Source: Paenibacillus sp. yr247 (lineage in GTDB: Bacteria; Bacillota; Bacilli; Paenibacillales; NBRC-103111). From it: a DNA stretch of 64,000 bases. The stretch spans positions 620,001 through 684,000 of the forward strand of contig NZ_FNIF01000001.1 of the NCBI RefSeq assembly GCF_900103825.1. Direction: 5' to 3'. Position numbers and translations under genes: made by a program. The notes below the pieces were generated by a model, which was not told where the DNA came from, made no database searches, and was given only the letters and a program-made list of their open reading frames with translations. The first letter of the stretch is position 1. Every line of letters starts with the position of its first letter. This document shows, piece by piece, positions 35,990-43,637 of the stretch.

Positions 35990-36042
35990 TTGCATAACGA
36001 ATACGTGTTCGGTATATAATAAGTAACACGAATATATGTTCG
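35990..36042 (+). promoter_or_regulatory. SOS promoter with two LexA boxes
   Basis: TTGCAT (35990-35995), a 17-bp spacer and TATATA (36013-36018) form the promoter. LexA box 1, CGAATACGTGTTCG (35998-36011), fills the spacer; box 2, CGAATATATGTTCG (36029-36042), covers the start region. Each differs from the Firmicute consensus CGAACATATGTTCG mainly at one core base. Bound LexA would block both RNA polymerase binding and escape, so the downstream operon should be damage-inducible. Confidence 0.85.
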
Positions 36043-36059
36043 CATATGGTGGTGGGAAT

Positions 36060-36431
36060 ATGAGTGTTAGTTCAAGAATTGAGACAGAAGAGGATGTTCA
36101 AATTATCAAAGAATACACGCTGCTGCCCATTTTGCTCGATATGCTGGCAAGGGATATGGAGGAGCTCAAGGTTTATAAGGATAAGATCGTGTACAATCAT
36201 ATTCTTTTTTATCTCAGAGAGGTTGAGACCGCAATTTATCCCCAATTACAAAGTATTAAGAGCAAGATGAAGCAACGAGATATTAAAGTCATCCATACTG
36301 AAATGAATGCATTAGGTATTAACGTAGAGTATAAAGTTCGAGGCTACATCCATCATTTCACGATGCTTCGCAGCTTGGTCAAGGCTGAGCTTATGACCAC
36401 GCTTATGAATATGCGGGGGGGATTACGGTGA
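36060..36431 (+). CDS. SOS operon protein 1, polymerase-associated helical protein
   Basis: A 123-residue, mostly helical protein of unknown function. From residue about 15 it aligns with the third gene of this operon: EYTLLPILLDML against DYVLLPLMHGMI, KSKMKQRDI against KTKMMQRRI, VEYKVRGY against YRYACRGH, then KAELM against RAEIS. ATG 36060 follows GGTGGTGGG, and its stop overlaps the polymerase start (GTGA). The LexA promoter lies just upstream. A role as polymerase cofactor or regulator is inferred from context. Confidence 0.8.
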   Translation: MSVSSRIETEEDVQIIKEYTLLPILLDMLARDMEELKVYKDKIVYNHILFYLREVETAIYPQLQSIKSKMKQRDIKVIHTEMNALGINVEYKVRGYIHHFTMLRSLVKAELMTTLMNMRGGLR

Positions 36432-37696
36432 GCCAAGGAAAGGAACGAACGATCTTCCTAGCGGACTGTCAGAGCTTCTATGCAAGCGTGGAGAAGGCTG
36501 CTCATCCGGGCTTGGAGGATAAACCGGTCGCTGTTGCAGGAGACCCTGCGCTAAGATCGGGTATCATTCTAGCAGCCTGCCCCGTGGCCAAGAAATACGG
36601 CGTATCCACAGCCGAACGGTTGGGTGAAGCGCTTAAGAAGTGCCCTGAGTTGATCGTGATGCGCCCGCACATGCAGCATTACATTGATGTTTCGCTGCTG
36701 ATTACCAAGATTTACGAAGAGTTTACCGATCTCGTTGAAATTTTTAGTATTGATGAGCAGTTTCTTGATGTTACGGCGAGTTTAGCGATATTCGGAGACC
36801 CTATAACGATTGCGAAAACCATTCAACGAAAGGTGTTCAGTCAAACGGGGGTAAAAGTTCGAATTGGGATTAGCTCTAATAAAATACTAGCGAAGATCGC
36901 GACAGATATTTGGGCCAAAAAGAATGAAAGTGGCATCTTCACGCTGCTCCCATCAGACGTCGAGAAATACTTGTGGGAACAACCTGTAAGTAAGATGTTT
37001 GGTGTCGGTTCGCGGATGACCGCGCATTTTGCCCGACTAGGTATGTATTCGATCGGCGATGTGGCGAGAACACCGCTGCCGCTGCTCAAGAATAAATTCC
37101 GCGCACGCTTCGGCAAGCAGTCAGATATTCACGCTGAAGTGATGTGGCGAACAGCGAACGGGCTGGATGATAGTCCGGTTACGCCGGGGACTTTCGATAC
37201 GCCTCCGAAGTCTGTAGGGCATATGATGACTTTGCCGAGGGACTATGCGGAATCCTCTGAAGTAGATACCATCCTACTCGAGCTTACGGAAGAGGTGTGC
37301 CGCGACTGCAGGCGCAAAGGCTATATGGCTTCAATTGTTACCGTAAGCTGTATGTGCAGCCCTTTCGACGCACCGACAGGCTTTTCGCGTCAAATGAGGA
37401 TGCCCGACCCTACGAATCATACAAGTACGGTTTTTCAAGCTGTGAAAAAGCTATTATACAAGTTCTGGGATACCATGCCGGTGCGCCGCGCCGGTGTCAT
37501 GTTGAGTCAGTTAGTGGATGATGATACCTATCAGCTGACGCTCTTCGAGGATCAGATCAAGGCGCGAGCGCTTGAGAAAGTGACGGACAGCATTAAGGAT
37601 CGATTCGGCAACGCGGCGATTGTTCGTGCTTCCTCGGTCACGACCGCCGGTCAAGCGCAGAACAGAGCGCTCAAAATCGGGGGGCACTATAAATGA
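36428..37696 (+). CDS. Y-family DNA polymerase (UvrX/DinB type)
   Basis: A 422-residue translesion polymerase. The catalytic acidic residues are in FLADCQSFYASVE (about 10-22) and FSIDEQFLDVT (about 104-114). The palm, fingers, a GVGSRMTAHFARLG thumb helix-hairpin-helix (about 197) and the little-finger domain follow. A beta-clamp motif QLTLF lies at about 366-370. It is closer to the UvrX/YqjW branch than to DinB, judging from the CPVAKKYGVSTAE segment. It overlaps both neighbours by 4 bp, so all three are co-translated, under the LexA-box promoter. Confidence 0.9.
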   Translation: MSQGKERTIFLADCQSFYASVEKAAHPGLEDKPVAVAGDPALRSGIILAACPVAKKYGVSTAERLGEALKKCPELIVMRPHMQHYIDVSLLITKIYEEFTDLVEIFSIDEQFLDVTASLAIFGDPITIAKTIQRKVFSQTGVKVRIGISSNKILAKIATDIWAKKNESGIFTLLPSDVEKYLWEQPVSKMFGVGSRMTAHFARLGMYSIGDVARTPLPLLKNKFRARFGKQSDIHAEVMWRTANGLDDSPVTPGTFDTPPKSVGHMMTLPRDYAESSEVDTILLELTEEVCRDCRRKGYMASIVTVSCMCSPFDAPTGFSRQMRMPDPTNHTSTVFQAVKKLLYKFWDTMPVRRAGVMLSQLVDDDTYQLTLFEDQIKARALEKVTDSIKDRFGNAAIVRASSVTTAGQAQNRALKIGGHYK

Positions 37697-38196
37697 GCAA
37701 AAAACTGGAAAAGAACGGCCTGTGGGAATCCAGCAGAATGATGCTGCCCCAGCACCGAGAGGCCTTGCAAAACCAGCGCAGCGATAGACCTGCTCCGGCA
37801 AGTCGTCCCACAGCGGAAGACATTGGGGTCATGCGAGACTATGTCCTGTTGCCTCTCATGCACGGGATGATTAAGAAAAAAGCCAGTGAAATCGAAAGAT
37901 CCTCCGAAACGCTTAGACTGCTTTATGCCCGTGTTGCGCATGCGCTTGCTGCCCAAATACAAGCCGATTTAAGTGAAACCAAAACGAAGATGATGCAGAG
38001 GCGCATTCAATTATTTGAAGAGGAAAAGAATGACCGCGAGATTCACTATCGTTATGCTTGCCGTGGGCATGAAGATGCGCTTATCATTGCTAAAGACTAC
38101 ATGCGTGCCGAAATAAGCGTACGAACGGCCCGATACATTGATCATCTGGTTGCAAGCGTGTATAACGCTGGGAAGGCTGATGAACAGAAAGCGTAG
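37693..38196 (+). CDS. YolD-like N-terminus plus helical domain, SOS operon protein 3
   Basis: A 167-residue protein. Its first 30 residues (GLWESSRMMLPQHRE) carry the YolD-like signature found next to UvrX in Bacillus and its phages. After a short disordered link, residues about 45-155 are homologous to the first protein of the operon. The polymerase is thus bracketed by two paralogues, one with an added YolD segment. ATG 37693 overlaps the polymerase stop (ATGA). Function unknown; YolD proteins are thought to assist Y-family polymerases. Confidence 0.8.
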   Translation: MSKKLEKNGLWESSRMMLPQHREALQNQRSDRPAPASRPTAEDIGVMRDYVLLPLMHGMIKKKASEIERSSETLRLLYARVAHALAAQIQADLSETKTKMMQRRIQLFEEEKNDREIHYRYACRGHEDALIIAKDYMRAEISVRTARYIDHLVASVYNAGKADEQKA

Positions 38197-42141: not shown

Positions 42142-42278
42142 TAACGAAGCACTTTGGCCGCTATCCTATTCCATTGGTTCAGGTTTGAAGGAAAAAAGTA
42201 TGATTTAGGCCACCTGTTTACTCATCTTTAACTATCGTTTAACGCAGCACTATGACCACTATCCCTTTGACTCAGGTT
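42142..42278 (+). repeat. Two diverged direct repeats
   Basis: 42142-42185 and 42240-42278 share TAACG-AGCACT, CTATCC and TCAGGTT in the same order, with scattered changes and a small gap. No open frame covers them. They lie between the COG0523 gene and the transposase relic. Confidence 0.6.
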
Positions 42279-42330: not shown

Positions 42331-43227
42331 TTAGGCACAGATGGACGTATTTTGGGGATTGAAAAAATTGAGTTTGGCATGAGGTGCCGTACATAAGTGG
42401 GTCAAATGCTGAAAGATGGATGCTTCGCGTAAAGTAAGGTTTACCTTAAAGCAAAACTCATCAAGGTAACTTTGTAGATACTTTTGTCCAATGCCATAGA
42501 ATGTGTTGTTGATTGATTTGCCGGCTTGTACTGCGAGTGCAAGGAGAGAACGAAAGCGCTTTGGACTAAAGCGCCCAGTATTGAATTCGATGCTGCTTGT
42601 CTGCGATTCGATATGTTGTTGGGTAAAGTCCATTGTTGTAGATCGTTGAAAAAGCTTGTTTTTTATATGCATTTTGGAGACTAGTTTGAGTTTGATATAG
42701 GCTGGTTCGCCCAGAAAGTTGAGGGAGGAGCCTGCTAGAAGGTAGTGCTCCTGTGGATGGTTGCGGTAGTAAGGATTGTAGGGTTTTCCATAGACAGCTG
42801 AGTTTACTTGGACAATACCAGAAAGCAGAGTGCTTTGGTCAGCTGCACTTATGGCGTGACGAATTTTGTGAAGGATGAGCCAGGCTGTCTTGTAGGTGAC
42901 GCTAATAATCTTGGAGAGCGTAACGGCATTCGTACCCTGCTCCGTGCGACATATCAGAAAAATAGCGGTGAGCCATTTATGTAAAGAGGTGCGACTGCCT
43001 GCCATTATAGTCCCGGCAGTGAGGGATGTTTGGTGTTGACATTGAAGACACTCATAGAGAGGAAGCCTCCTCGTACGGGTTATATAGGCATGTGAGTGCC
43101 CGCATTGTGGGCATGAAAATCCAAAGGGCCATTTCGTCGAAAACAATTAATTTATACAAGTCTCTTCAGTGGGAAATTGCTGTTGAAACTGCTCAAGAGT
43201 GCTCGGTAAATGATAGTTTTTTTCCAT
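42331..43227 (-). pseudogene. IS1595-type transposase relic under SOS control
   Basis: Read from ATG 43227 the frame gives MEKNYHLPSTLEQFQQQFPT..., the usual N-terminus of IS1595-family transposases. It then meets TAA (43149-43147) where the family has Tyr (C-I-x-Y-L-F), and continues open to 42331. The rest shows the zinc ribbon (CPQCGH and CLQCQH), TAWLILHKIR and the conserved C-terminal YLDEFC. In the catalytic strand the first Asp is Asn (IVQVNSA where active proteins have V-x-V/M-D-E/D), so it should be inactive even if the TAA were read through. Restart at TTG 43146 could give a 271-residue product. No terminal inverted repeats were found. GAGGTG precedes ATG 43227. Confidence 0.75.
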
Positions 43228-43253
43228 TATGACACCTCACAGGAATTTCCAAA

Positions 43254-43301
43254 AGAACACTTGTTCTTATTTATTATACCGAATATTTGTTCTTATATCA
43301 A
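43254..43301 (-). promoter_or_regulatory. SOS promoter with two LexA boxes before the transposase relic
   Basis: On the minus strand: TTGATA (43301-43296), a 17-bp spacer and TATAAT (43278-43273). LexA-like box AGAACAAATATTCG (43293-43280) fills the spacer and AGAACAAGTGTTCT (43267-43254) follows the -10. The positions relative to the promoter copy those of the polymerase operon at 36.0 kb. Confidence 0.8.
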
Positions 43302-43637
43302 TTATTAACTGATACTTATTAAGGTGGATTGATTTGTATTAATTAAATACTTAGGTGATTCCCAGGAGCTTTAAACATTAACTATGAGTCATGATAAGTT
43401 ATTTCAAAAAAGTAATAGAGTAAGAGGGGGAATGGGAGTTTTTGGGGCGACGCCATCGGGGATCAAAGCATGAAATCATGAATTGCTGGGAAACAAAGGT
43501 GTGGAGTGAAGTTGTGGATATGTAACGATCAAACCTTAATGAGTCTTGGGGATAGTGTCCATATGCGAGTCACAGTTGAAGTAATAGTTGTTTTATTATC
43601 TATTTGATGGAAAAATATGAACTCAGGATAAAGACAA
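43302..43637 (+). other. Non-coding stretch
   Basis: About 335 bp of AT-rich DNA between the relic's promoter and a terminator. No gene, known motif or insertion-sequence end was found. Confidence 0.5.

Follow-up and report, generated by a model that had tools for sequence, protein, structure and literature searches.

The window, a stretch of 64,000 nucleotides from Paenibacillus sp. yr247, contains what is probably an interrupted copy of a gene for a conserved DNA-binding protein family descended from a LexA-controlled IS1595-type transposase; the protein would be induced in the SOS response and would pair repeats without cutting them. Loss of the catalytic triad, selection on the protein, conserved LexA-type boxes and conserved inward-facing repeats are read directly in the sequences of the window and its relatives, and from them we infer LexA control in the cell, binding, pairing and a pay-off. 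The repeats are a feature absent from an earlier note on this DNA, which had drawn attention to the gene and its promoter.

The gene, identified by sequence reading and family matches, runs on the minus strand from an ATG at 43227-43225 to a final stop at 42333-42331 (42331..43227). It is interrupted at codon 27 by an in-frame TAA (43147..43149, minus strand), directly followed by a TTG at 43146 from which a frame of 271 codons remains open (42331..43146, minus strand; frame list and family match) and retains the zinc ribbon. Family models match this remainder to the IS1595 zinc ribbon and, as regards the IS1595 DDE domain, to its tail alone; the transposase zinc ribbon PF12760 is likewise matched in the window frame, as it is in 57 of 57 relatives devoid of the triad. 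The earlier note had reported that the first catalytic Asp is lost in the motif VQVNSA. The motif is indeed present in the product, and the loss extends to the second and third catalytic residues, the triad positions being occupied by N, none and Q, respectively.

Upstream of the ATG, on the same strand, sequence reading reveals a -35-like TTGATA (43296..43301) and a -10-like TATAAT (43273..43278) separated by 17 nt, with one LexA-type box, GAACAAATATTC, inside the spacer (43281..43292) and a second, GAACAAGTGTTC, after the -10 (43255..43266), which agrees with the earlier description. The first box departs from GAACN4GTTC by one mismatch, and the second is the window's only exact match to it. 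GAGGTG at 43233..43238 (minus strand) is, by eye, the likely ribosome-binding site. The promoter near 36.0 kb, that of the translesion polymerase operon, has an identical layout, as had been claimed; it lies about 7 kb away. In that operon-like row the polymerase is flanked by two small genes (36036-36431 and 37693-38196) that have no significant Pfam or NCBIfam match.

Boxes of this kind are common by chance. The window holds 23 with at most one mismatch, compared to 22.4 expected, that is, no excess, and the exact GAACN4GTTC occurs 108 times per strand in the whole yr247 genome against 145 in a reversed control, so that it is not enriched either; single-genome evidence is therefore weak, and the claim for the boxes rests on their conservation across relatives. 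Among the genes listed in two of seven host stretches around exact boxes, no recognised SOS gene was found. The gene divergent from lexA in the same genome (L312) has a promoter, TTGACT-17-TATTCT, with one box inside the spacer and a second beyond it, which is the layout of the window gene; lexA's own promoter, TTGTAC-17-TATACT, has a box in the spacer and another just upstream. Four LexA-type boxes lie between the two genes (L312:1300-1520). The promoter with the window-like layout is that of the divergent gene and not that of lexA itself.

A search of 99 genomes yielded eight orthologs of the window gene, at 69-86% identity, and these share everything that the earlier note had proposed to look for in relatives. 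All eight lie between a CobW gene and fur, all have Asn in place of the first catalytic Asp and all carry both LexA-type boxes; a TIGR03943-type gene and the adjacent permease are also kept at seven. The TAA had been described as standing where the family has Tyr. The codon is indeed open in seven of the eight orthologs, with Tyr or Phe, so the interruption itself is no family trait; the TAA was seen in the window copy only. In another ortholog, L008, the N-terminal part is frameshifted, which brings to two of nine, window gene included, the orthologs damaged in this part. Six of the nine were intact and were used to estimate selection (separate comparisons were made for the window gene, L008 and L010): their median dN/dS is 0.24, with the lowest value, 0.16, in the part comprising the zinc ribbon and the HTH. 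For the part of the window frame that follows the TAA, comparison to the same six yields 0.12-0.15; the stop is therefore recent, or a shortened protein is still in use. The TAA has probably either silenced the yr247 copy or shortened its protein; restart at TTG 43146 or readthrough may bypass it, as the earlier note proposed.

An ordinary decaying insertion sequence, a dead pseudogene with a leftover promoter and leftover ends, would account for the TAA in the window gene, the frameshift in L008 and the in-frame stops present in a few further relatives. This reading is largely refuted for the family, and we consider it very improbable: six orthologs are open with the dN/dS given above, the window frame after the TAA has an even lower ratio, and the place, the boxes and the inward repeats are all conserved. 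Stability of position is seen at a second locus as well, whose proteins are 54-58% like the window gene product: of 22 loci compared, 15, in as many genomes, share their surroundings. A role in regulating fixed neighbours was considered and appears unlikely, as the window locus, the second locus and the dispersed copies do not have the same genes next to them.

Loss of the triad is general in the family. We collected 169 loci and dropped 19 with identical protein ends, leaving 150 unique members, the window's counted; 133 of them lack the triad and 17 keep it, sixteen as D-D-N and one more that keeps D-D but is truncated. The second Asp is absent from every one of the 133 triad-less members, in which its segment is missing, while the first Asp is retained in 12 and an Asn occupies the third position in three. 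A tree of 87 rows (70 triad-less and all 17 triad-keeping members, the other 63 of the 150 not included), computed without the catalytic region, separates the two sets by a single branch (SH-aLRT 99). A single loss of catalysis would be the simplest reading of this tree, which is unrooted and thus gives no proof of it.

In 57 triad-less members, the invariant columns fall in the zinc ribbon, in a segment around YKTxW and in a C-terminal motif, and no acidic residue is among them; two Glu are nearly invariant, one before and one within the zinc ribbon. A triad merely displaced in the alignment was considered and rejected, given the complete absence of the second-position Asp among the 133, the missing segment and the lack of an invariant acidic column. 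The same observations bear on the possibility of a working nuclease with an unrecognised active site: dispersed copies do exist in a genome where no intact relative was detected (see below), but the two nearly invariant Glu lie before and within the zinc ribbon and the segment of the second Asp is gone from all 133 triad-less members, and we regard this possibility as barely credible. The catalytic site of IS1595 elements is treated in PMC12561309. Triad-less members match the IS1595 profile at both ends and not in the middle, and many still exceed its cut-off; because of this, they may be filed as ordinary transposases by automatic annotation. In further searches, a scan of viral contigs gave relatives of 23-39% identity only, a profile search of solved structures with the family gave no match, and the PADLOC anti-phage defence models had no match for two Paenibacillus members and, for one member from genome G060, a single weak match (E 0.0034) to a type I specificity subunit.

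The boxes are conserved in the family as well. Within 300 nt around the start, a box with at most one mismatch is present in 128 of the 133 triad-less genes and a strict one in 116 (five have none), compared to 9 and 0, respectively, of 130 control stretches located 200-500 nt downstream of the stop. When the upstream stretch is narrowed, a strict box is found at 100 of 133, against 1.8 expected from shuffles. One finding that the earlier note had named as contrary to its view, relatives that all keep the triad and lack the boxes, is thus not what this family presents. Its proposal of a tamed, SOS-promoted protein derived from a transposase fits well with the shared position, the loss of Asp, the boxes and the purifying selection. 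Its other suggestion, a relic of an SOS-triggered mobile element, was also partly right, since a box with at most one mismatch is present at 16 of the 17 triad-keeping relatives. Because these relatives also have boxes, SOS control is probably older than the loss of catalysis. The conserved, promoter-overlapping LexA-type box by which SOS regulons are recognised is present, and LexA would be expected to control the gene in the cell.

One triad-keeping IS1595-type element, with an apparently broken N-terminal frame, lies on the window's own contig about 190 kb away (L310:990-2070). It appears to have inserted into a LexA-type box, GAACAAATGTTC, that precedes an MFS transporter gene; in combination with the element ends, its 8-bp duplication, ACAAATGT, restores a box on either side.

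The window gene is also bracketed by a 24-nt inverted repeat pair, found by inverted repeat and motif search, whose two copies both point at the gene: one on its 3' side (42251..42274, plus strand) and one on its 5' side (43540..43563, minus strand). A degenerate extra copy, with two mismatches to the search pattern, lies 93 nt outside the 3'-side copy (42159..42182, plus strand). A stricter form of the motif has three copies in the yr247 genome, two of which are those at the window gene. Within 1 kb of the 133 triad-less genes, the motif ATCCC-N5-nTCAG occurs 378 times facing inward and twice facing outward; the pattern was derived from the same loci, and its abundance is therefore partly given by construction, while its orientation is not. 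It stands on both sides at 98 of the 133 loci and is doubled or more on a side at 66, and the strict motif is absent from both sides at 10. Spacing is regular within many of these arrays and different between loci. At the 98 loci that have both arms, the outer 8 nt of the two arms agree at 0.741, compared to 0.444 for shuffled loci (sd 0.016), and more than they agree with the nearest relative below 80% identity (0.643; Wilcoxon p 2e-7).

Such repeats resemble transposon ends. The intact relative L073 carries TCATCCCTTTGGCTCAG at its end, and L074 and L070 have ends of similar layout; 8-bp target site duplications are visible by eye at all three. This is the length typical of the IS1595 family. 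None was seen around the window repeat pair. The strict motif is found at only one of the 17 triad-keeping loci.

Motif copies are also dispersed in genomes, and there are more of them where the family is present. YTATCCCN6TCAG has a median of 22 matches in the genomes where the family is matched at 1e-45 or better (48 of 99; in three of these, G030, G044 and G089, the best match is a triad-keeping copy), 5 in the 11 genomes with weaker family matches and 3 in the 40 without the family; a control pattern averages 1.6, 2.4 and 1.1, respectively. Exceptions exist on both sides, with fewer than 8 matches in five of the 48 and at least 8 in three of the 40. The yr247 genome is among the five, having 5 matches (control 2), and this low count, together with the interrupted gene, suggests that the system is fading in this strain.

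In genomes that carry the gene, some arrays lie elsewhere and have none. Thirteen, picked as lying away from known genes, were read, and none encodes a relative. Those at L292 (4 and 11 copies) and L299 (7 and 9) face inward from both sides, and L295 and L298 resemble gene-bearing units minus the gene. In G060, the arrays L292, L293 and L299 hold 15 to 17 motif copies, and the spacer sequences of their left and right halves differ. The spelling of gene-less arrays matches that of gene-flanking motifs of the same genome at eight of eight loci in G060, each above every foreign sample, and at none of five in G003 or G021.

Gene-bearing copies can also be numerous: 15 were read in G060, nine of which form one subfamily, 82-93% alike, and Cohnella silvisoli has seven that are 88-94% alike. 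Homology of the dispersed copies extends beyond the motif copies. Beyond their right ends, an A-run and a hairpin, resembling a convergent gene's terminator, were seen by eye, with no control for intergenic frequency, at eight of the nine G060 copies and likewise at the seven of C. silvisoli, L145 being the least clear. The copies next to this feature belong to the sets L055-L058, L060, L064, L066, L067 and L069 (G060) and L143-L148 and L150 (C. silvisoli). In Cohnella xylanilytica, L163 and L166 are 98% alike over the coding part only; their promoters and 3' flanks are unrelated, a pattern suggestive of gene conversion.

Dispersal raises the possibility that the family is a non-autonomous mobile unit, for which an intact relative or another recombinase would provide the catalytic enzyme in trans, the triad-less protein at most choosing or pairing the ends. 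The dispersed copies in G060 and C. silvisoli, the gene-deleted aspect of L295 and L298, the A-run and hairpin adjoining the right ends, and one strong full-length IS1595-profile match in C. silvisoli (214 bits, residues not read) all speak for it. Yet no intact relative was found in G060, where none of 21 IS1595-profile matches exceeds the family cut-off, no match to an intact query is obtained at 1e-60 and none of the copies read keeps the triad. Moreover, the two loci stayed put across 9 and 15 genomes, and the protein is under selection even though it would not be needed for cutting. We hold this reading to be rather unlikely.

A second possibility is that the triad-less protein and the arrays block transposition, by occupying or titrating ends against SOS-induced intact relatives. 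LexA-type boxes occur at 16 of 17 intact relatives, and the ends of at least one of them, L073, agree with the motif, so the two kinds of protein could be induced together and act on similar ends. However, an intact query is matched at 1e-60 in only 11 of 99 genomes, compared to 48 for the family, and the rarity of the strict motif at intact loci argues in the same direction; such a blocking role seems to us quite improbable.

We return to the damage-induced, non-cutting, end-binding protein, towards which the retention of recognition parts, the loss of cutting parts, the matching inward ends and the LexA-type boxes point. The ancestor would have combined a zinc ribbon and an HTH-like segment with a D-D-N triad, and its terminal repeats would have measured about 24 bp. 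Its descendants would then have dropped the triad while retaining the parts likely to recognise ends, along with the SOS-type promoter and the end repeats on both sides, the latter often multiplied into inward tandem arrays. Upon DNA damage, LexA repression would be lifted and the protein made; it would bind arrays on either side of its own gene as well as elsewhere in the genome, and the bound arrays would be paired without being cut. As for the pay-off, the likeliest, held with well under even confidence, would be that the repeat family itself persists, in the manner of RAYT/REPIN systems; the benefit may instead lie in the blocking of active relatives or in assistance to spread in trans. 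More speculatively, and doubtful in our view, pairing, without cutting, of the inward arrays by the induced triad-less protein may let new copies arise beside terminators, via another recombinase or repair at the paired sites.

Several known systems share part of these features. The family has the zinc ribbon and C-terminal part of IS1595 elements, according to family models, and repeats like those at the ends of L073 and other intact relatives; it differs from IS1595 elements by its missing triad, its repeats multiplied into arrays, its LexA-type promoter and its fixed place across species. CENP-B, which likewise descends from a transposase and is dead as one, binds a short motif arrayed in tandem, but it is eukaryotic, of the pogo type and not controlled by damage, and the likeness is an analogy only. 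RAYT (TnpAREP), associated with REP/REPIN repeats (PMC8266576; PMC3116915), is a domesticated transposase (PMC8266576); both cases involve a transposase-derived gene kept beside a population of short repeats, with gene and repeats appearing to change together. The RAYT/REPIN-like association of dispersed repeats with the presence of the gene is seen in the median of 22 against 3 motif matches reported above. RAYTs, however, are HuH enzymes that process single-stranded REP DNA, whereas the present family is of the DDE type, lacks the triad and has double-stranded inward arrays and SOS-type control; with family models, no HuH (Y1) transposase domain was found in the window frame or in members, the matches being to IS1595 models. 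The ISCR transposase promoter is, on the account in PMC13393415, under LexA control, to which the LexA-type boxes seen here in sequence can be compared, but ISCR is an active mobile element with an enzyme of another class. Bacterial MITEs (PMC10969869) are gene-less units with inverted ends, and the gene-less units seen here resemble them, some (L295, L298) apparently having arisen by internal deletion; the present family is set apart by the long tandem arrays on each side, and no active partner was found in G060.

In the open-licence full-text literature, subscription papers being mostly outside the scope of the search, we found no report of the triad-less family, its arrays or its boxes. If our reading is true, this would be a bacterial DDE transposase kept after the loss of its active site and linked with both the DNA-damage response and a repeat family spread over the genome. 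Three questions would become open to test: by what means dead transposases are retained, whether SOS control is ancestral in this insertion-sequence group, and whether repeat arrays can spread without the ancestral enzyme.
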